Source of the DNA: a virus
DNA length: 33,614 nucleotides
Reading direction: 5' to 3' (one strand)
Virus record (IMG/VR): IMGVR_UViG_3300009705_000059
Span: 1 to 33,614 of that record
The notes under the pieces are model-generated. The model was given only the letters and a program-made list of their open reading frames with translations, ran no database searches and was not told the DNA's origin. Position 1 is the stretch's first letter. Each line of letters begins with the position of its first letter. The position numbers were made by a program, and so were the translations under genes. This document shows positions 2,336-16,160 of the stretch, one piece after another.

Positions 2336-2748
2336 TATTCCGCTATTTTGGCAATTCGTTGTGCCACATCTGAAATTTTAAAATTTGGTTTTAATATTAC
2401 ATCCTTAACTCCAAGATTAACTCCCGAAATCTTCGAACCTTGTGGACCTGTAAACCGAATACGAACTGCTTTACCATTAACTTTTACTTCTGCACCTGTA
2501 TGTGCCCATATGGATTTTGTATAGTTTACACTTTTACCGAGTTTTTTTAATTCATTCTCAAGTTCTTTCATTACCTTTAAGTTTTCTTTTTTTATATCTT
2601 TTGTATAAACTTTACTTATTTTAATTTTTTCTTGTTGAAGTTTCCATATTTTATCTTGAAGTTCTTCAATTCTTGGTTCACCATTTTTATATATCTTATC
2701 AATGGTAGATAAATTACTTTCATTAATTAAATTTTTTAAGTTTATCAT
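2335..2748 (-). CDS. Hypothetical core-region protein with CTS-like leader, 137 aa
   Basis: A 137-residue protein of unknown family. The first ten residues, MINLKNLINE, resemble the T4 capsid-targeting leader that ends in a gp21-cleavable hydrophobic-x-E. Residues about 25-75 form a Lys/Glu-rich predicted coiled coil. The C-terminal part (about 80-137) looks like a small beta-rich domain with a VRIRFTGPQG segment. The start overlaps the previous gene's stop in an ATGA arrangement, and a GGGAAA ribosome site lies upstream. Its place between portal and protease suggests an internal head or core protein. Function is not established. Confidence 0.6.
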   Translation of the reverse strand: MINLKNLINESNLSTIDKIYKNGEPRIEELQDKIWKLQQEKIKISKVYTKDIKKENLKVMKELENELKKLGKSVNYTKSIWAHTGAEVKVNGKAVRIRFTGPQGSKISGVNLGVKDVILKPNFKISDVAQRIAKIAE

Positions 2749-2758
2749 TGTAGTTTCC
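2745..2758. repeat. 14-bp repeat over a start codon and ribosome site (copy 2)
   Basis: Second copy of TCATTGTAGTTTCC (plus strand), identical over 14 bases to 2322-2335. It covers the ATGA overlap and ribosome site of the 2335-2748 gene. Confidence 0.5.
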
Positions 2759-3422
2759 CTACTTTGTTAGCGAGTTTGACTAATCTCTCCGAAATTTTAC
2801 TCATTGCTTTATGTGTGTTCTTCCAATATGATTTTGAATCTACACTTAACTCATTTTTTAATTTAACATTCATATCAATAAGTTTACTTAATTCAGTTAG
2901 TTTATCCCTAACCTCTCTCATTGAATTGCCAATTTTTTGTTTAGCCGTTAAAGTATTATCATTACGATATTGTGTATAATGACCTTCATTTAACCCTGGA
3001 TTCTTTTGTTGTCCTTTATCCCAACTATTCATTAAACCAGCAAAGGGAATGACATATTTTTTAAAATTCTTTATAATAATTTTTTCATCTGTTTTCTCGC
3101 CACTAAATTTAGAAATAGTTTTACCTAAGTCCATAGTTTCTCTTGCAAAAGCTTGATATGCTTTATAATACTTTATGTATGCATTATGATAATCTCTTTT
3201 TTGACCTTCAGTTAGACCTTCAATTACTTTTTTATATCCTGCTTCTTCTGGGTCTTTGTGGCCGGATTTAGTCTTTTTATCAAAGGCAGCTGGTATATCA
3301 TAATGAATACCATTACCAGTTGAACCACCTGCTGATGTAGTTGTTGAAGCTTCTTCTATCTCTTTCATAATTAATGTACGAAGTAATTCTCTTAATGTTT
3401 TTCTACTTAATTTTGTGGACAT
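2745..3422 (-). CDS. Hypothetical head-module protein, 225 aa
   Basis: A 225-residue protein of unknown family. The N-terminal 25 residues form a basic amphipathic helix ending in IEE just before an Ala and a Ser/Thr/Gly-rich linker (residues 26-40), a plausible gp21 cut site and linker. The rest is helical and rich in Lys and Tyr, with long heptad-like segments from about residue 150. The start has a clear AAGGAG site 8 bases upstream. It overlaps the preceding gene by 20 bases and the following one by 4 (ATGA), so the group is co-translated. An internal head or core function is inferred from position only. Confidence 0.6.
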   Translation of the reverse strand: MSTKLSRKTLRELLRTLIMKEIEEASTTTSAGGSTGNGIHYDIPAAFDKKTKSGHKDPEEAGYKKVIEGLTEGQKRDYHNAYIKYYKAYQAFARETMDLGKTISKFSGEKTDEKIIIKNFKKYVIPFAGLMNSWDKGQQKNPGLNEGHYTQYRNDNTLTAKQKIGNSMREVRDKLTELSKLIDMNVKLKNELSVDSKSYWKNTHKAMSKISERLVKLANKVGKLQ

Positions 3423-4327: not shown

Positions 4328-6139
4328 CTATTTCTTATCCGTAAATTCTTTATATTCTTGATTTAATTCTTCACTGTCGGCGGTTTCCCTAAGTAATTCC
4401 TTACCTTTACCCCCAAATGATTTTTTTAAGGCATCATAATGAGCTAAAGCCATACGTTTTCCATGTTTGCCAATTGGGTCTCTATCACGAGCACTCCCAT
4501 CTTTTCCATAACTTGGAACTTCTTTTGGTCTACCCACCCCATCAGCAACTTCTTCTTGGTCCCAGACTGAACCTGCGGGAGTTTCTGCATCCCCACCTTC
4601 ATCTGGTGCAGCAGTTGCCATATCACTTGGTGTACCAACTGAATCTCCACTTTCTTTAGGGTCATTACCTTCATTTTCAATTTGTGAGTATCTGAACTTC
4701 TCTTTTTGGTCTTGAACCAATCCCTTTTCAAGGTCTTTAATTTGGTCATCTGAGAAATTAAATACATTTTTATAAACCCACTCACTCGGTAATAATGAGT
4801 TATCTTTCATATCACGAGCAAGATTAACTTTGTTACTCCATAGTTCAATCTTTTCTTGTTCATATATTGTAGATGGGTTGGTTAGATTCAACTCAAAGTT
4901 TACCAATTGTGCATCTGTATATCCTTGTGAATATAAATGTACAACCGCAATCTTTGTTAATTCACTAACTACGATTCTTTGTATTCTTTCAATCGTTCTT
5001 GCAAACCTTACATCTTCTGCAGCCAATGTTGCTTTACTTCCAAGTGATTCCTCATATCCAAGAAATGCTTTTGGTACGTGTAATGCTGCTAACATACGAT
5101 TCTTTAGATATTCAATATCCTCGGTTGTTTCATATGTCATTCCAGGAGTGGATTCTATACTTGTTCCACTATCTCCACCACGAACTGGTAAGAAGAAATC
5201 CTCAGTTAAATTTTGTATATTAAATTTTAAATTATAATCACCAGTATTTTCATCAATAAATGGTGTTTTCTTCATCTTATTGACTATCTTTTGCATATAG
5301 TTATCCACTTCATTTGGTGGAATATTACCAATATCAATTTTAAATACACGTTTTTCAGGTGCTCTCATAATTCTATGAATTAACATAGCATCTTCCATCA
5401 ATGTAATCTGTTTCCAAGTCTTACGAGCTCCTTCTAACATTGATTTACCATATGGTAATAAATTACTATCATTAGATAATCTAAAGTGAGCAACTTGAAA
5501 GTTTTCAAATTCTATTTTTGTTCCGTTTGATTTTTTTGCAAAATAAGGATGTGCAGCTTCCATTGCTTCTAAATAAAATTTAGTATAATATGGATTCTCT
5601 GGGTCTTCGCCTTCTGAACGTATCAATTCATATGGGGATAATGGAACAACATTTGTAATTCCGTACTTATCTTGTACATCTAAATATAAAAAGAAATCAC
5701 CATACTTAGTTAGGTTTCTAACCCAAGGCCATAAGTTAAATTCAATATTCATTATATCATAGAATAGATTATGTAGAATTTCTTTAATATTTTCATCATC
5801 ACTCTGAACTTCCAACACTTCTCCATATGGATTTTTCATTGTTGATTCATCTGAATAGATATCCAGTGCAGATGATATGATTGAATCCGATTCCATAGAT
5901 TCATACTCTGTAAATAATCCAGTCCTTGCAGCCTGTAATTGTGCATAATTAGAATATCCAGTATTATTTAGTTGTAATCCACTATGTACTTTAGAATATC
6001 TATCTACAAGATGTGATTTCATTTGTCGTTGTATTTGGTCTGTATCGGCAACTTTTAGTTTTTTACCGCCTACGTTTCTCACGATTACATTAGTACTAAA
6101 TAATCGTCTTAATCTCCCAAATAATGTTTTATCAGCCAT
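4328..6139 (-). CDS. 20: Portal vertex protein, T4 gp20-like
   Basis: The portal forms the dodecameric ring at one capsid vertex, nucleates head assembly and is the channel for DNA packaging. The 603-residue product is longer than T4 gp20 (about 524), mostly through a polar C-terminal tail after about residue 480 rich in Asp, Gly and Pro. Recognisable portal features include the YESMESDSIISSALDIYSDE region near residues 79-98, the MRAPEKRVFKID segment (about 260-270) and the LAAEDVRFARTIERIQ stretch (about 372-388). It lies 12 bases after the terminase gene with a GAGG ribosome site. T4 has genes 18 and 19 between 17 and 20; here they are absent from that place. Confidence 0.93.
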   Translation of the reverse strand: MADKTLFGRLRRLFSTNVIVRNVGGKKLKVADTDQIQRQMKSHLVDRYSKVHSGLQLNNTGYSNYAQLQAARTGLFTEYESMESDSIISSALDIYSDESTMKNPYGEVLEVQSDDENIKEILHNLFYDIMNIEFNLWPWVRNLTKYGDFFLYLDVQDKYGITNVVPLSPYELIRSEGEDPENPYYTKFYLEAMEAAHPYFAKKSNGTKIEFENFQVAHFRLSNDSNLLPYGKSMLEGARKTWKQITLMEDAMLIHRIMRAPEKRVFKIDIGNIPPNEVDNYMQKIVNKMKKTPFIDENTGDYNLKFNIQNLTEDFFLPVRGGDSGTSIESTPGMTYETTEDIEYLKNRMLAALHVPKAFLGYEESLGSKATLAAEDVRFARTIERIQRIVVSELTKIAVVHLYSQGYTDAQLVNFELNLTNPSTIYEQEKIELWSNKVNLARDMKDNSLLPSEWVYKNVFNFSDDQIKDLEKGLVQDQKEKFRYSQIENEGNDPKESGDSVGTPSDMATAAPDEGGDAETPAGSVWDQEEVADGVGRPKEVPSYGKDGSARDRDPIGKHGKRMALAHYDALKKSFGGKGKELLRETADSEELNQEYKEFTDKK

Positions 6140-9194: not shown

Positions 9195-12100
9195 CTATCC
9201 AAATTTTATACTACCAAGTATCTGATTAATTGGAGCAAATGCACCTGTGAACTTATATATGTTTCCTTTATACTTAAACACTATACCCTCACTTGGTACA
9301 ACTGAATCCAACCCACCAATTGCTTGTAGTTTCTCAATTTGTATTTTTAACTTCTTTAACTTTTCTACGTTACCGCCACTCTGTAAATCCTTTAATGCAC
9401 TTAACATTTCTTTACGAATCTTCTGTACTGATTTCTTAGGTGATACAGCAATATATCCTTGAATATTTTTTAATATCTCTGCACCAACTGAAAAGAATAA
9501 TACCTCGAATGGTTTAATATTATCCTTAAAAATTTTCTTATGGTCTTGTTTATCTGTTGATAATATCCAATCCATAAATTTAGGATTGTCTTTATAATCT
9601 TTTTTAATTTCTGCTATCTTATAACTCTTATCAAAAAATGCCCATCTTCTTACTAACTTAATAAACTGATTTGGTTTTAAATTAACCTTAAATTGTTTTG
9701 ATGCGTTAAAAATATACTCTCTCCAATATGCCTCGTGGTATTCACCCAATGTATCTTTATCTTTTAACCCATATTGAGATTGTAGTTTTTTTAATTGTCC
9801 TAAATACTTACTCTTCAATTTATTAAAGTCTTGATGTTTAGGTACAGTCAAAAAGTTTGGTTTCCCAATCTTAAACATCTTTTGTATATGTTGATTCATT
9901 TGTTTAATCATACCTGCTAACATTCTAGCACTATCTTTTGGTTGTCCAATTGGTTTTCCACTCTCATCATACTCTAATGTACCATGAAATACAATTTCTG
10001 CTATATCATAATCTATTACATTTGCAGTTGCTGGATACATAACCTCTAAATTCATCCATTTTTTACCATTACCGAATACTTTATCTTTTTGTTTATCACT
10101 CAAACTACCAATAGATTTTTCTAAATCTGTCATAGCACCTACAAAAGCTTTTTCAATTTCACCTCTACCACTAAACATAGATTTTATTCCACTTGTGGTT
10201 GGTGCAGTTTTACCAAAGTTTTTTAAATGTCCTTTATTACGAGCTGCTCTTAACTTCCCATCAATCCAACTTACCATTAAATTCTGTCCATCAAGTTTCT
10301 CTGTAACACCATCTTCTCTATCTAACTTTCCCCCTATACCATTAATAACTATCTGTTTCAAGTCTGAAAATGTAAGATTATTATCATCGAAAGGATGACT
10401 CATATGTCCGTAGGCTCCACCCATAAGTAATAACTCCTTTGTGTGTTCTGTTATATCAATTCTTTCGTGGAAATCTTTTAGTTTTTTAGTAGGTGCTGGT
10501 TTAGTCGAATTACCCTTACCTGCCGTTGCAGTTCCCATATCATGTGTTGGTGAATCTGCCATCTTATTATGTTTATTATCACCAAAGAACTTTAAAATTT
10601 CCCACCCCATTTTTCCAACAATCTTTCTCATATGTTTTTTATATTTTGGAAATGGGTTACTCACACTATCAGTATTTTTAGTATCTTGGTTTATTGTTCT
10701 ACCATATGTGGTGGTGGATACTCTATCTATTGTAGATGTACTAAAATCAAAACCAGGGTCTTTTGCATTCTTACCAATGATATCATTAAGTACTTCCCAC
10801 CCCATTATTTCTGCGTGTTTAGGGGATACTCGTTTATAATCCGAGAATGAATTAAAGAAATCATACAATCCCTCATCATCAAAAATCTTTGCATCAAAAT
10901 GATTTCCCAATGCACTAACTTCCTTTATTAAATTTTTTACTGAAGATTGATTATAAAATTCAAATAACTTTTTAAATTTATTAGTCATCATTTGGTACAC
11001 ACCTTTATCATAATACCCAAATAACTTTTTAAATACTTTTGGCCTTGTCTTATCATCGAGTTTGGGACTACCCAAAATATTTCTCATTGTAGTACCCGAA
11101 ACCTCTTTACCACCTACACTCATACTAATATGTGGGGCAACTAAATAATAACCATGTTCCCCATGTCCTTTTATATTTCGTATATTCTTTTTGTAATCTT
11201 GAAAATAAGTTAAACCACCATCGGTTTTCTTTCCACCCTTTATTCTACCTGCATCTTTCTTACCGAAAATATAAACTACAGCAGTAGTTTCTGGGTCAAA
11301 CTTACCAAGTAACGTCTTAGCAACTAATGGTATTCTCTCGTTAATAATTTTATTCTTAGGTACACCCATTTTAACCATATGTCGAACTTTCTCTTTATAG
11401 TTCATTGGATGCCTTGGTGGTTGCTTTATATTAGATGTAGTGATATATGCATCATCTACTTGTTTCTCTAACCACTTAAATGTTTTTAGGTGATGTGGGC
11501 CAAATGGTTGAAATCTACCACCATAAATACCTATTACTTTTTTAATCTTATTCTCGTTCAAATTGATTGCAACATCCCCATCTTCTATGATAGAATATAC
11601 GACATTTTTCATATAAGAGTCAAGTGTTTTCTCATTTAGTTTTCCATCACTTATACCTCTACCACCTTTATCAAATGTGGTGAACTTCTGTAACTTACCA
11701 AATGCTTTATCTTTCCTCATCTTGTCTTGTTTGTGCCATCTCATCTTATCAAATACTTTCATTCTCATATGATTCTTTACTATGTAATGGATATCATCAA
11801 CATCACCACCCAATGATTGTATCCACTTCTTGTGTTTCAATACAAGTTCGGCGGAAACTTTCTCGTGTCCATAATGTGTCCAAAAACCTTTCTTTGGATG
11901 TATCTTTGCGGTTGAATCTTTTCCTATATCGTGAAACAATGCTGATAAAGCAAAATCTATATCACCAGTTTTTAATGCTCTATTAGTTACAGCAATGGTA
12001 TGTTTTAAAACATTACCCTCTGGATGAGCATCTCTTCGTTGGTCAAAGTTTTTAAGGTTCATAACTCGTTTTTTTAAATCACTTGGAATAGCGTTATAAA

Positions 12101-13721
12101 TATCTCTGAATGTTTTAGGTTTCTTACGAACTGCTATTTCATCTACCTTTTTATACCCACTCATTCTATCAGTTTTGTTTTTATTAATACCTTTTCTACT
12201 TGGTGATGGAATTGCAAACTCATTTTTCATTTTAAGTTTCTTTCTCAACTTATCAATTTCCTTACTAATTTTTTTTTGAGCTGGACTGCCTGGCATCATT
12301 TTCATGGCCTGGGTATAAAGTTTATACAACTTTGCCTTATCGGTACTTTCACCTAAAAACTTTTTCTTTTCCATATCTTTCATCTTATCACCAATAGCTT
12401 TTCCTTTTAGCCCAACTATATCACTACCCTTTACACTTAACTTAAATGTAGATAGTTTTTTTAAATCTTTACCAACTAACGTACCATACTCTTGAATTTG
12501 ATTTGATGTCAATGTGGTTTTCAGTTGTGCTTTTTTAACTATATAAATATTTTCTGGTTTAAAGTTATTCAGATAAACTAAGAACTGAATGTTATTACTT
12601 TCCTTAGCACTATACTTTAATGAATTTAAAGTTTTACCTAACTTAGTTACATCATTCTTTCTTAAAATTGTTGAAATAAATAAAATATAATCCTTGACAT
12701 TTGGATAAGGTTTTGTTATATTTAACTTGGGGAATATTTGTTTTGTAAAACTAAACTTATCACATGCTTCCATAAATTGTTTTGATGATTTTCCCTTTTG
12801 TAATCCCTTTACAAACTCTTCTTTGATTCTCTCACCACTCACACCATTTAATTTTGGATTATCTAATAATGCTTGTTCAGTATCTTTATCCATTTTCCCA
12901 CCAATAACAGCTTGAAATCTCAATGCTCGTAACTTTCTTAATGGGTCCTCATCAAATCTTCTTTTTGGATTACCGACAGTCCTTACTAATTTATTTTTTA
13001 AATCTTTTAATCCACCTGTTAAATCAACTACTTCATTTCTTCCAATATCATAAAACATAGCATTGATAGTTAAATCTCTTCGTTTAACATCCCCTTGTAT
13101 ATCAGAAAAATCTACTGCATCTGGTCTACGACCTTTACCAATATCTTTTCTGAATGTAGCAATTTCGTGTCCACCCACAATCACTACTCCAAATGATTTA
13201 CCAACCTCGACTGTTTTAAATCCACCTTGTTTTGCAATTGCTAATACTTCGTCTGGTTTTGCATCAGTTGCTAAATCAAAATCTTTTGGTTTCTTACCAA
13301 GTATTGCATCTCTTACTGCACCACCCACAAGGTATAATTCTTTTTTATTTTTCTTAAATAATCTATACAACCCTTTAATATCACCTGGAACATTAATCTC
13401 TATTTTGTTTTCGTTTACACTTTCTTTTTTATTAGCTCTAATACCTTTAAACTCTGCACCTCGCATGTCGGGGTCTGGGTTGGTAGAACCTTTATCGGTA
13501 GTTTTTATCGGTAATAATTTTTTACTATCTTGTTTTGCAAGTCTAAATTTTAACGCAGGTCTTTTATTGATAAGTAAATCACCCTTTTCATTATAGGTAA
13601 TTGACTTAACAACTACCTTCTTGTTCTTAAATCTACCCATCAAGACAACATCACCAACTTTAACTGGTAGTTCTATTTCTTTGATAAGTGGTTTAGTTAA
13701 CCATTCTGTAAGTTTATTCAT
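9195..13721 (-). CDS. Giant RNA-repair-type fusion: CCA-adding NTase + HD hydrolase + NMNAT-like + polynucleotide ligase
   Basis: A 1508-residue multi-enzyme protein. I start at the ATG at 13721, 4 bases after the preceding stop; a longer frame would overlap that gene. The order is: a small beta-rich domain (20-65); a class II poly(A)/CCA nucleotidyltransferase head (115-310) with GGAVRD (133-138), catalytic DFD (147-149), RRD (214-216) and FDEDPLR (256-262), plus its tail to about 458; an HD domain (550-690) with H574, HD 597-598 and H651; an NMNAT/cytidylyltransferase domain (725-915) with GGRFQPFGPHH and SGTTMR (875-880); and a ligase domain (1095-1508) with EKLDG (lysine 1142), RNKG (1161-1164), LEVMYP (1225-1230), SEGIVFK (1477-1483) and YKFTG. 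All motifs look intact. It probably repairs RNA or tRNA ends. Acidic-site leaders at the domain joints suggest gp21 processing. Confidence 0.88.
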   Translation of the reverse strand: MNKLTEWLTKPLIKEIELPVKVGDVVLMGRFKNKKVVVKSITYNEKGDLLINKRPALKFRLAKQDSKKLLPIKTTDKGSTNPDPDMRGAEFKGIRANKKESVNENKIEINVPGDIKGLYRLFKKNKKELYLVGGAVRDAILGKKPKDFDLATDAKPDEVLAIAKQGGFKTVEVGKSFGVVIVGGHEIATFRKDIGKGRRPDAVDFSDIQGDVKRRDLTINAMFYDIGRNEVVDLTGGLKDLKNKLVRTVGNPKRRFDEDPLRKLRALRFQAVIGGKMDKDTEQALLDNPKLNGVSGERIKEEFVKGLQKGKSSKQFMEACDKFSFTKQIFPKLNITKPYPNVKDYILFISTILRKNDVTKLGKTLNSLKYSAKESNNIQFLVYLNNFKPENIYIVKKAQLKTTLTSNQIQEYGTLVGKDLKKLSTFKLSVKGSDIVGLKGKAIGDKMKDMEKKKFLGESTDKAKLYKLYTQAMKMMPGSPAQKKISKEIDKLRKKLKMKNEFAIPSPSRKGINKNKTDRMSGYKKVDEIAVRKKPKTFRDIYNAIPSDLKKRVMNLKNFDQRRDAHPEGNVLKHTIAVTNRALKTGDIDFALSALFHDIGKDSTAKIHPKKGFWTHYGHEKVSAELVLKHKKWIQSLGGDVDDIHYIVKNHMRMKVFDKMRWHKQDKMRKDKAFGKLQKFTTFDKGGRGISDGKLNEKTLDSYMKNVVYSIIEDGDVAINLNENKIKKVIGIYGGRFQPFGPHHLKTFKWLEKQVDDAYITTSNIKQPPRHPMNYKEKVRHMVKMGVPKNKIINERIPLVAKTLLGKFDPETTAVVYIFGKKDAGRIKGGKKTDGGLTYFQDYKKNIRNIKGHGEHGYYLVAPHISMSVGGKEVSGTTMRNILGSPKLDDKTRPKVFKKLFGYYDKGVYQMMTNKFKKLFEFYNQSSVKNLIKEVSALGNHFDAKIFDDEGLYDFFNSFSDYKRVSPKHAEIMGWEVLNDIIGKNAKDPGFDFSTSTIDRVSTTTYGRTINQDTKNTDSVSNPFPKYKKHMRKIVGKMGWEILKFFGDNKHNKMADSPTHDMGTATAGKGNSTKPAPTKKLKDFHERIDITEHTKELLLMGGAYGHMSHPFDDNNLTFSDLKQIVINGIGGKLDREDGVTEKLDGQNLMVSWIDGKLRAARNKGHLKNFGKTAPTTSGIKSMFSGRGEIEKAFVGAMTDLEKSIGSLSDKQKDKVFGNGKKWMNLEVMYPATANVIDYDIAEIVFHGTLEYDESGKPIGQPKDSARMLAGMIKQMNQHIQKMFKIGKPNFLTVPKHQDFNKLKSKYLGQLKKLQSQYGLKDKDTLGEYHEAYWREYIFNASKQFKVNLKPNQFIKLVRRWAFFDKSYKIAEIKKDYKDNPKFMDWILSTDKQDHKKIFKDNIKPFEVLFFSVGAEILKNIQGYIAVSPKKSVQKIRKEMLSALKDLQSGGNVEKLKKLKIQIEKLQAIGGLDSVVPSEGIVFKYKGNIYKFTGAFAPINQILGSIKFG

Positions 13722-13725
13722 TTTT

Positions 13726-14259
13726 TTACCATTTACGACACGACCAATATCTTGCTTTATGTTTTGGGCCTGGATTATCACAATTATGTCTTGCTCTAAA
13801 AGATTTACGAGCTGATGGATTATCTTTACGAATCCTCATTGTTCCACCCTTAGCATCTCCACCTTGACCAAAGTTAACCTTAACTACATTACCCTTATCA
13901 TTTTTTACATATACTTTGAATTTTTTAGCATCACCTTGCATTGGTTTACCAAGTTTAACTTTTCTACCTTGATATTCTGCTTCTTTTAAATCTTTATCTG
14001 TATCAACTTCTATTGTGTATCCACAACTTTCATTTTGATTTTCCCAATAAATATCAAAAACTTCTTTTACACAATTAGGAACTTTCTTATCACCCTTATC
14101 TTTCATGCCAAGTTGTTTATATCCTACCCAACAAGTTCCTCTGGCTTCATTTACTGCTTCATTGGATATTAATTTTACCATATTCTTTTCCCTTGATGAT
14201 AATCTATCTTTTTTCTTTCCGATTTCTCTCGGTTCATCTATGTGAAATGTTGCCATCAT
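13726..14259 (-). CDS. Phage protein with conserved Cys/Arg-rich C-terminal domain, 177 aa
   Basis: The N-terminal half (about residues 30-75) has the pattern GTCWVGYKQLGMKDKGDKKVPNC. The C-terminal half (about 95-177) carries a conserved block ending RKSFRARHNCDNPGPK and then KARYWSCRKW. I remember both blocks from hypothetical proteins of T4-like marine phages and large DNA viruses; I do not know their function. Cysteines and basic residues suggest metal or nucleic-acid binding. LISNEA and VNEA segments near residues 29-38 match gp21 cleavage patterns. The ATG at 14259 overlaps the previous stop (ATGA), and the next codon is also ATG with better spacing to GGAG, so the real start may be 14256. 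Confidence 0.7.
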   Translation of the reverse strand: MMATFHIDEPREIGKKKDRLSSREKNMVKLISNEAVNEARGTCWVGYKQLGMKDKGDKKVPNCVKEVFDIYWENQNESCGYTIEVDTDKDLKEAEYQGRKVKLGKPMQGDAKKFKVYVKNDKGNVVKVNFGQGGDAKGGTMRIRKDNPSARKSFRARHNCDNPGPKHKARYWSCRKW

Positions 14260-14612
14260 ATTTCTCCGTAATCAAACCCATCCGTTGAATAATCTTTATC
14301 ACCATATTTATCCCAACTGCCTACCGCAGCTTGAAATCCCTCATACTTTTCACCAGTATTTATAATTCTTTTAATTACCTGTACTTGTAATGTTTTCTTA
14401 TCTCTCTTCCCACCATATGGGTCATCTGCTTTTGGAAAATCTAATTGTGCGTATCCACCCTTATCATACCAAGGCTCTGGTTTACTACTATCAACACCCA
14501 ATATTCTTGATTGTCCTGCAGGTGAAAACCCTGTATCTGGTTCACCAGCATCTGCAGAATGGTGATTACCATTAGCACTTATTTCTTTTACTATATCCAT
14601 TAACTTAATCAT
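14256..14612 (-). CDS. Hypothetical protein with CTS-like leader, 118 aa
   Basis: A 118-residue, Gly/Asp/Lys-rich protein of unknown family. Its first ten residues, MIKLMDIVKE, closely match the leader of the kinase gene two genes upstream (MIKLMDLLNE) and the T4-type capsid-targeting leader. The next residues (ISANGNHHSADAG) resemble an internal segment of the 1508-residue protein (about 935-945, VSALGNHFDAK), suggesting a shared targeting or processing module. The rest looks largely disordered with aromatic patches. It may be a packaged internal head protein. This is inferred from the leader and context. Confidence 0.62.
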   Translation of the reverse strand: MIKLMDIVKEISANGNHHSADAGEPDTGFSPAGQSRILGVDSSKPEPWYDKGGYAQLDFPKADDPYGGKRDKKTLQVQVIKRIINTGEKYEGFQAAVGSWDKYGDKDYSTDGFDYGEI

Positions 14613-14615
14613 AAT

Positions 14616-14936
14616 TTATCTCGGTGCGTTGGAATCCCAAGGCCCCCAATGGCCTAATTTTACCATTTTATTTGCTGCTTCTTTTCCTGTATAAGAATGT
14701 ACCTTATATCCTTTAACGGGTATTCCACCTAATTCATAATATTTCTTTTTTGATAATGCTATTTTCTTACCATTTGAAAAGTCCATTACTAAACTATTAC
14801 TTTTTTCTACCCAACAATGTCCAAATGGTTTATTGTCTGTTGCTAATATTGCAACTCCATGACATAGTTTAAATGATTTATCATTCATTTTAGTAATGAT
14901 AAAATTACCATTTGCTTGATAACAATCTCCAGCCAT
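14616..14936 (-). CDS. Small conserved phage protein, possible thiol-hydrolase fold, 106 aa
   Basis: The 106-residue protein begins AGDCYQANGNFI and has LCHGVA (about 24-29), FGHCWVE (about 38-44) and VMDFSNGK (about 50-57), ending in GHWGPWD. This Cys, His, Asp order recalls papain/NlpC or transglutaminase-like folds, and I remember similar small proteins in many phages as hypotheticals. C5, H40 and D52 would be the candidate triad. It sits directly after the endolysin gene (TAATG overlap), so a cell-wall or lysis-related role is possible. Activity is not shown by the sequence. Confidence 0.65.
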   Translation of the reverse strand: MAGDCYQANGNFIITKMNDKSFKLCHGVAILATDNKPFGHCWVEKSNSLVMDFSNGKKIALSKKKYYELGGIPVKGYKVHSYTGKEAANKMVKLGHWGPWDSNAPR

Positions 14937-15418
14937 TAGACTGATAATGCTCTACGATACCAACCGAATAAAAACCTTTCTTGTTCTGGTTTTTTATTTA
15001 CTAAATCATAGTAATGTTTTAATCTGTAACAACGAACCCTGTCGAGTGATGGTTTGTATGTTTCAACCGCACCTCTTGTTCCAGGTCCGAATCCACCATC
15101 AATAGCTAAATCTGCACCCTTTGCGTTACACGCTCGTTGTAAAATTTTTACTGCAGTTCCCCTACCTTGATTCACACACATATCAAAAAAGATATGTTTT
15201 AAATCATCTGTTAGGTAACCTACTTTATTCTTATCCCAGTAATCTTGTTTATAGATTTCTTTAGCACCTTCTTTTGTAAGGTTTTTTATATCTACATCTG
15301 GATAAAATCTTTTTGTTATACCGAAGTTAGTTTCCCCGCCCAAGTCTGTTGGGTCGTGGACGTAACCACCTTCGTGGTGTAGTGTTACTTCTATTATCTC
15401 GTTAAATGTAATTAACAT
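14936..15418 (-). CDS. Endolysin, GH108 family lysozyme
   Basis: A 160-residue peptidoglycan hydrolase for host lysis. I place the start at the ATG at 15418 because a perfect AGGAG site (15427-15431) lies 8 bases before it; a longer in-frame version would overlap the kinase gene by 150 bases. The N-terminus has the GH108 signature EGGYVHDPTDLGGETNFGIT (16-35), with Glu16 as the expected catalytic acid. IDGGFGPGTRGAV (about 109-121) and a FLFGWYRR segment near the end belong to the peptidoglycan-binding part of this family. No signal peptide is visible, so it needs a holin or other export route. The start codon lies 2 bases beyond the kinase stop. Confidence 0.92.
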   Translation of the reverse strand: MLITFNEIIEVTLHHEGGYVHDPTDLGGETNFGITKRFYPDVDIKNLTKEGAKEIYKQDYWDKNKVGYLTDDLKHIFFDMCVNQGRGTAVKILQRACNAKGADLAIDGGFGPGTRGAVETYKPSLDRVRCYRLKHYYDLVNKKPEQERFLFGWYRRALSV

Positions 15419-15419
15419 T

Positions 15420-16160
15420 TTATTTTCTCCTAAGTAATTTCTGTTTACCAACCCATAGCTTTCCGAGTTTGTTTTTGATGGGTTGCCCCACAAATTTTCT
15501 AACAACTTTAGTAACCAATGGAACAAATTTTGCCTCCGCTTCTTCATCGGATAGATGTTTTGAATTATCAACTATCACGAAATTGTTTTTAAATAATGAT
15601 TGAAAAGAACCAAGATTCTGTTGTACATCTTCCCAAGATTTTTTTAATAATTTTGGTGGTAAAATTCTATCTCGTTCTTGATTTCTTTGTTGTGCAACCT
15701 CTAATGATGTGTTCACCATTACCATATATGTATCATATCCATCTGCTTCTAACTCAGATTTCATTGTTTGTATCTTACCAAAATCGTGTCCTGTGCCATC
15801 AATAATCATACCCAATTTTCCTTGTCGATATAATCTCATTCTCTCTTTAGTAAGTGATTTTCCAAATTTTCGTAGTCCACTTGAATCTGGTAAACTATCA
15901 TCTGTTAAATTTTTAAATACTTCATCAGGCATTTTATCTAAATCAGTACCAAAGTGGAATTTCTTTAATAAAAATTTCAATTCTTTATCTGAATTAACCA
16001 TCTTCATACCACTCATACTGATATTGAACTTGTCTGGAATACCAAATATCTGTTTAGCTGCATAAGTTTTACCACTTCCAGGTCCACCTGCAAGGAATAC
16101 TGCTTTGAATATACCTTTATCTTGTACACCCTCGTTTAATAAATCCATTAATTTAATCAT
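15420..16160 (-). CDS. P-loop kinase (polynucleotide kinase/zeta-toxin-like) with CTS-like leader
   Basis: A 246-residue P-loop protein. The Walker A motif is GGPGSGKT (residues 25-32); IIDGTGHD (about 116-123) supplies an acidic loop, and the ERDR segment (about 153-156) looks like a lid arginine region, as in AAA_33/zeta-toxin/Pnk-type kinases. It may phosphorylate RNA or nucleotide ends; zeta-type sugar-nucleotide kinase activity is the alternative. The start is the ATG at 16160, with GGAG 6 bases upstream, better than the in-frame TTG at 16172. The first ten residues, MIKLMDLLNE, resemble the T4 capsid-targeting leader cut by gp21, so the kinase may be packaged. From memory, T4-like marine phages carry similar FKAVFLAGGPGSGK proteins. 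Confidence 0.8.
   Translation of the reverse strand: MIKLMDLLNEGVQDKGIFKAVFLAGGPGSGKTYAAKQIFGIPDKFNISMSGMKMVNSDKELKFLLKKFHFGTDLDKMPDEVFKNLTDDSLPDSSGLRKFGKSLTKERMRLYRQGKLGMIIDGTGHDFGKIQTMKSELEADGYDTYMVMVNTSLEVAQQRNQERDRILPPKLLKKSWEDVQQNLGSFQSLFKNNFVIVDNSKHLSDEEAEAKFVPLVTKVVRKFVGQPIKNKLGKLWVGKQKLLRRK

Follow-up and report, generated by a model that had tools for sequence, protein, structure and literature searches.

Introduction

The internal proteins IPI–III and Alt of bacteriophage T4 carry a capsid targeting sequence (CTS) that is cut by the prohead protease gp21. In IPIII, the first ten residues are enough for targeting; positions 4 and 7 serve targeting, and positions 8 and 10 serve processing (PMC9026906). 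Alt is cleaved after ITE-6 and LTE-619, and the same protease cuts gp22, gp67, and gp68 of the core into fragments (PMC5694885). The internal proteins recognized by this signal are variable among the T-even phages; restriction enzymes are inhibited by three of them, IPI, IPII, and IPIII (PMC12373910).

Enzymes have also been reported from cyanophage virions. The published virion proteome of the Kyanoviridae cyanophage S-CREM2 comprises 52 among 219 ORFs, and its authors caution that abundant non-virion proteins may co-purify (PMC10665884). The S-SM1 cytidylyltransferase T4-GC190 was detected in virions (PMC3037559). The accessible portions of the cyanophage virion papers do not describe a shared leader on these enzymes. 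Our literature search, in which coverage of subscription papers was thin, returned no paper tying a CTS to cyanophages save a T4 review and no obvious one tying it to metagenomic T4-like phages.

The window (the whole stretch of 33,614 nucleotides analyzed here) is a fragment of an uncultured marine T4-like phage genome. We compared it with 110 related IMG/VR loci, 30 fetched by its kinase and 80 by its gp21, which encode 1152 unique predicted proteins.

Results

Leader-bearing genes in the window

Three minus-strand genes share a leader. The kinase (15420–16160) starts with MIKLMDLLNE from an ATG at 16160, with GGAG upstream as the ribosome binding site; its predicted targeting sequence spans 16131–16160, with predicted cleavage after E10, and leaves a P-loop, polynucleotide-kinase-like cargo (15420–16130). 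The gene at 14256–14612 starts with MIKLMDIVKE (14583–14612), followed by a small cargo (14256–14582) with no Pfam or PHROG family; a related gene in another locus (L184) has the leader MIKLVDILNE. The third gene (2335–2748) starts with MINLKNLINE (2719–2748). Its remainder (2335–2718), a putative cargo or core protein in a singleton cluster, has no convincing Pfam or PHROG family. The first-pass annotation had noted these near-identical ten-residue N-termini on otherwise dissimilar proteins, and they hold letter for letter; past residue 10 they share no Pfam or PHROG family and fall into separate clusters. The span 14256–16160 that it had highlighted also takes in a GH108 endolysin (14936–15571) and a small gene (14616–14936), neither of which carries the leader. 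A degenerate DNA pattern matched these three leaders only in the window, and its control matched none.

The third gene lies in the head module, between the minus-strand genes for the portal gp20 (4328–6139, assigned by synteny, sequence, and gene order in relatives) and a gp21-type prohead protease of the Peptidase_S77 family (831–1454; PF03420, 8.3e-26; PHROG head maturation protease, 5.7e-52), which is the predicted processing enzyme. Both the portal and the large terminase genes are upstream of the protease gene. No leader was seen in the surface-sugar gene block that lies beyond them.

Two further minus-strand genes in this module have candidate leaders of other lengths (↓, candidate cut). 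One (2745–3422) begins with the longer MSTKLSRKTLRELLRTLIMKE↓IEEAS, and, by inspection of the sequences, relatives retain MSTK..(L/F)xxxLIxKE↓IEE. The other (1456–2325) begins with the short MNDKYLKE↓, where its relatives start with MKLKDLIKE instead. The 1456–2325 protein also contains the motif R-x-F-G-x-P-L-P-T-L-x-x-x-x-K-x-H-Q, which recurs after the leader in several otherwise dissimilar head-module proteins (L061:13041, L081:16961, L042:6165, and others) and may bind the core or scaffold. Elsewhere in the window, 13726–14259 encodes a small protein that is rich in Cys and contains a CWVGYKQ module; its inner MVKLISNEAVNE may represent the start of a leader or a site of internal processing.

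Recurrence of the leader in related phages

A loose leader expression matched 118 of the 1152 proteins, whereas ten control offsets averaged about 6 matches. Because it admits false positives, such as one terminase starting with MAEQIKKVIKE (L113), we later adopted a stricter ten-residue form, which fixes positions 4, 7, 8, and 10, restricts position 3 to K, R, or N, and leaves positions 5 and 6 free. This form gave the consensus M-I/A-K-L-K-D-L/I-L/I-K/N-E on about 100 unique proteins. The counts over 100 leaders are invariant M, L, and E at positions 1, 4, and 10, with I77/A19, K97, K85, D57/E13, L63/I37, L51/I43/V6, and K45/N19 at positions 2, 3, 5, 6, 7, 8, and 9; K5 and D6 arose unforced by the search pattern. 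As DNA, the motif gave 63 matches in 16 of 19 long contigs, on a single strand in each contig, and the reversed pattern gave 0. AT-rich genes might often begin with M-I-K-L simply by chance or composition, and the leader codons are indeed AT-rich (ATT, AAA, and TTA, for example), but the offset and reversed-pattern controls contradict this explanation, whose probability we consider negligible.

Leaders of the same contig agree at 69% of positions and the following 20 residues at 7%, which gives a sharp boundary after residue 10. The leader DNA is 77% identical, as would be expected if the shared 5' end were a DNA- or RNA-level feature, such as an AT-rich start that aids translation or a short homology for recombination. 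However, 27% of same-residue comparisons use different codons, the 20 nucleotides upstream are just 36% identical, and neither the constant E10 nor the internal junctions described below would be explained. We rejected a shared promoter or 5' DNA as the main cause on the codon differences and the low upstream identity, and an explanation at this level is very improbable. The 77% identity nevertheless means that recombination at leaders may well add to cargo exchange.

Single-linkage clustering of the post-leader sequences gave at least 29 cargo clusters. Among these are an HD-domain protein and, by sequence only, one HAD-like and one HExxH-containing protein; most leader cargo in the relatives has no Pfam family. 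A leader-bearing family of about 310 residues (WYPAHT...KSISTFT...GGVIFHV; L196:2809–3753 and the reverse strand of L193), with no Pfam or PHROG match, gives a faint impression of likeness to ADP-ribosyltransferases such as T4 Alt.

Leader-bearing genes in the relatives lie mostly between the portal and capsid genes. The polyprotein is followed by the terminase, the portal, and leader genes, then by gp21, a long protein, and between one and five leader genes. Next come a MAKLKDLIKE protein, ribosomal protein S21, a gp22-like scaffold, and gp23, the gp23 and S21 identities being confirmed by Pfam. A second group of leader genes surrounds the kinase and the polyprotein. T4 keeps its core-protein genes at the corresponding place of the head module. 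This location suits an alternative in which the leader targets the prohead core but the small proteins that bear it belong to the scaffold or core, as T4 gp67 and gp68 do, and are destroyed by the protease without ever being delivered; the fragmentation of gp22, gp67, and gp68 by gp21 is a precedent. Against it, no scaffold role is obvious for kinase, CCA, HD, and NMNAT-like enzymes, and in cyanophages leader proteins are still present in the mature virion (see below). As a general account we judge it unlikely, although it may hold for some of the leader proteins, which would then be destroyed rather than carried as cargo.

The ribosomal protein S21 gene (PF01165, 1.4e-15; L074:14784–14996, L091:16303–16509, and other relatives) lies within the head module on the same strand, with a leader gene on one side and the scaffold gene on the other. 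In the bS21 phages described in PMC9723584, the S21 gene is on the opposite strand.

A predicted processed polyprotein and the fusion junctions

The minus-strand gene at 9195–13721 encodes a predicted multi-enzyme polyprotein of 1,508 residues with internal [LIV]xE sites as predicted cuts. Its start is most likely the variant leader MNKLTEWLTKPLIKE (13677–13721); the ATG at 13721 is preferred over a GTG at 13781, and the ORF of L166 begins at the same Met. A CCA tRNA nucleotidyltransferase-like domain (12348–13409; PolyA_pol, 1.2e-30; PHROG tRNA nucleotidyltransferase, 2.4e-67) follows SVNE (E codon 13410–13412). The HD domain (11553–12137; Pfam HD, 1.4e-7) follows KVDE (E codon 12138–12140), and an NMNAT/cytidylyltransferase-like domain (10920–11552) follows NLNE (E codon 11553–11555). 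A domain without an assigned function (10446–10919) comes after LIKE (E codon 10920–10922), and an ATP-dependent RNA-ligase-like domain (9198–10445) with the motifs EKLDGQN and EGIVFK comes after DITE (E codon 10446–10448).

In a clade in which these enzymes are encoded by separate genes, each version has its own leader: MIKLRTLLPLNE on CCA plus HD (L163), MDKLTRELIRDLLPE on the NMNAT-like protein and MIKLVDLLNE on the kinase (both L184), and MIRLMDILGE on HD (L154). Gene starts in one clade therefore mark predicted cleavage sites in the other. Over all polyprotein domain junctions, 58 of 62 have [LIVMF]-x-E (CCA 11/11, NMNAT-like 29/30, KOW-like 10/12, HD 4/4, and D5 4/5); the site is absent from two KOW, one NMNAT, and one D5 junction. 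Other cargo domains also stand behind either a start leader or an internal site; KVELYFRD, for instance, can follow MIKLKDLLSE or EEVITE.

In several phages the kinase is itself part of a fusion, and the residues before its GVxDxGIFKA are not a leader yet always end in [LIVMF]-x-E. The variants include IAE, LKE, VNE, VTE, LAE, and IEE, together with SEVTE in the jumbo phage Atu_ph07, while the kinases of HTVC008M and Melnitz start with MIPFILKE↓G and MKTFAELQE↓G. The junction [LIVMF]xE↓G was found in all 30 distinct contexts, these three phages included. The raw junction list is noisy owing to terminase homologues and register shifts; in the cleaner non-redundant test, with similar upstream sequences removed, all 12 of the 12 kinase contexts had the site, compared with an expectation of 10% (p 1e-12), although the E-G could belong partly to the kinase domain. 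The hydrophobic positions 4, 7, and 8 would also fit an amphipathic helix, that is, an unremoved targeting or membrane-binding element. However, the glutamate at P1 recurs at these fusion junctions, which have no need of a targeting helix, and such a helix is an improbable explanation of the leader.

Candidate sites were also seen, by position only, in the clade's capsid protein (QLIDE↓AS, about 20 residues ahead of the conserved LVRR) and in its gp22 (VISE↓G or VLTE↓G, close to the C-terminus). The 778-residue protein AUZ94865 of Atu_ph07 (L119:14254–16590) starts with MKWNDLNE and carries its kinase after SEVTE, an architecture that may place Rak2-related jumbo phages among those with processed head cargo. 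It is CDS 53 by record order, and the cluster CDS 31–76 of that phage yields 29 virion proteins, with the proviso that the published numbering may differ.

Leaders on cyanophage virion proteins

The pattern M..[FLYIV]..[FLIVM][FLIVM].E matched five S-CREM2 proteins: a SAM hydrolase (MKDFDSFLEE), gp13 (MKDLHSFLTE), an APH-like kinase (VKRFDAFLTE), gp136 (MQTFSMFFSE), and a cytidylyltransferase (MKNFSSFLTE). All five are in the published virion proteome (Fisher p 6.5e-4), a value to be read with the fact that the pattern, whose residue classes were taken from T4 and the window, was fixed after the virion N-termini had been viewed and was thus not blind. The S-SM1 cytidylyltransferase starts with MKKFSAFLNE. 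Cytidylyltransferase-like domains are therefore known cyanophage virion cargo, and the window polyprotein holds a domain of the same general class, a likeness at the level of class only. A displaced leader-like site, LRFASFMAE↓A, was seen around residue 25 of the Cas9-annotated S-CREM2 virion protein gp12 (L188:7704–10313).

Kinase and ligase-like domains

The kinase belongs to Pfam AAA_33/Zeta_toxin. With its structure model as query, the top Foldseek match was the Clostridium thermocellum Pnkp kinase (E 4.8e-7; top structures 4gp6, 4jt2, and 4mde), so the predicted P-loop fold appears closest to Pnkp. Among the weaker profile matches, L-seryl-tRNA kinase (PSTK) came first and Pnkp was also present; the protein is possibly a zeta-toxin or PSTK relative rather than a 5'-OH RNA/DNA kinase. 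In the ligase-like domain, K-x-D-G is invariant, the RNA_ligase profile scored 0.014, below the cutoff, and T4 Rnl1 was the top Foldseek match without being significant, from a poor model (pLDDT 62); the ligase assignment of this C-terminal domain is weakly supported. The CCA enzyme, by contrast with the ligase, is clearly assigned, and the HD domain looks like the one found in CCA/poly(A) polymerases.

Discussion

The comparisons above make it highly probable that the leader of this uncultured phage is a T4-type capsid-targeting and cleavage sequence and that cleavage at the same kind of site frees the individual polyprotein enzymes. That reading, which the first-pass annotation had advanced, is borne out by the T4 length and key positions, by head-module genes beside a gp21-type S77 protease, by the fusion junctions, and by the cyanophage virion proteins. 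Its further proposal that the three window proteins are head-internal cargo is likewise supported, as a prediction from the T4 comparison, the fusion junctions, and the virion mass spectrometry of two cyanophages.

We propose that the leader would dock each protein onto the prohead core during head assembly and that the phage's gp21-type protease would then cut after E10, at the [LIV]-x-E site, a step strongly supported by comparison. By analogy with T4 and with the cyanophage virion proteomes, the mature proteins would remain in the head and be ejected with the DNA. The polyprotein enzymes would be separated at the same sites, so that one leader could load several enzymes; the leader thus probably loads the whole set of CCA enzyme, HD, NMNAT-like, and ligase-like domains. 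Because its tag matches the head-loading tag of T4, the phage probably carries these RNA-repair-like enzymes in its virion and delivers them to the host cell by injection.

An RNA-repair role of the cargo enzymes is speculative. We tentatively suggest, at somewhat less than even odds, that the phage packs the processed polyprotein (end-healing, CCA-adding, and sealing) together with a polynucleotide kinase, the whole set being injected as a ready tRNA/RNA repair kit. If so, the kit would mend host anticodon nuclease damage before any phage gene is expressed. The NMNAT-like domain suggests cofactor repair as an alternative role.

The leader provides a sequence rule for spotting the probable injected cargo of marine T4-like phages, including otherwise unannotated genes. 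It also points to wide use of the T4 internal-protein strategy for many cargo types, multi-enzyme polyproteins among them. The identity of the injected proteins becomes directly testable by virion mass spectrometry, and the leaders offer natural tags with which foreign enzymes could be packed into heads.

Compared with the bacterial Pnkp/Hen1/Rnl and T4 Pnkp/Rnl RNA repair systems, the Pnkp-like kinase fold, ligase-like domain, HD, and CCA enzymes of the window would form a plausible end-healing and sealing set. Unlike in those systems, the enzymes are apparently packaged in the head, and the ligase is less securely assigned. The ejection proteins of the giant phages phiKZ and SPN3US resemble the predicted cargo here in that a prohead protease cleaves their propeptides after x-x-E and paralogues have identical N-termini, but their propeptides are mostly far longer, and their protease family (S80) and cleavage motif are different. 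The virion-associated enzymes of S-CREM2, S-SM1, and S-SCSM1 (cytidylyltransferase/NMNAT, kinase, and SAM hydrolase) share a cargo of the cytidylyltransferase class and, in S-CREM2 and S-SM1, the leader register MKxFxxFLxE. The cyanophage leaders keep this register with an F-rich consensus in place of KLKDLL and stand on separate genes rather than on a polyprotein. The likeness to the T4 CTS itself comprises ten N-terminal residues common to proteins whose mature parts are unrelated, hydrophobic positions 4, 7, and 8 with E10 (the T4 targeting and processing positions), an S77-type protease encoded nearby, and cassettes near the head genes. Unlike T4, this clade of uncultured, mostly marine phages has KLKDLL residues in the leader and many more cargo families, with enzymes and a polyprotein as predicted cargo.
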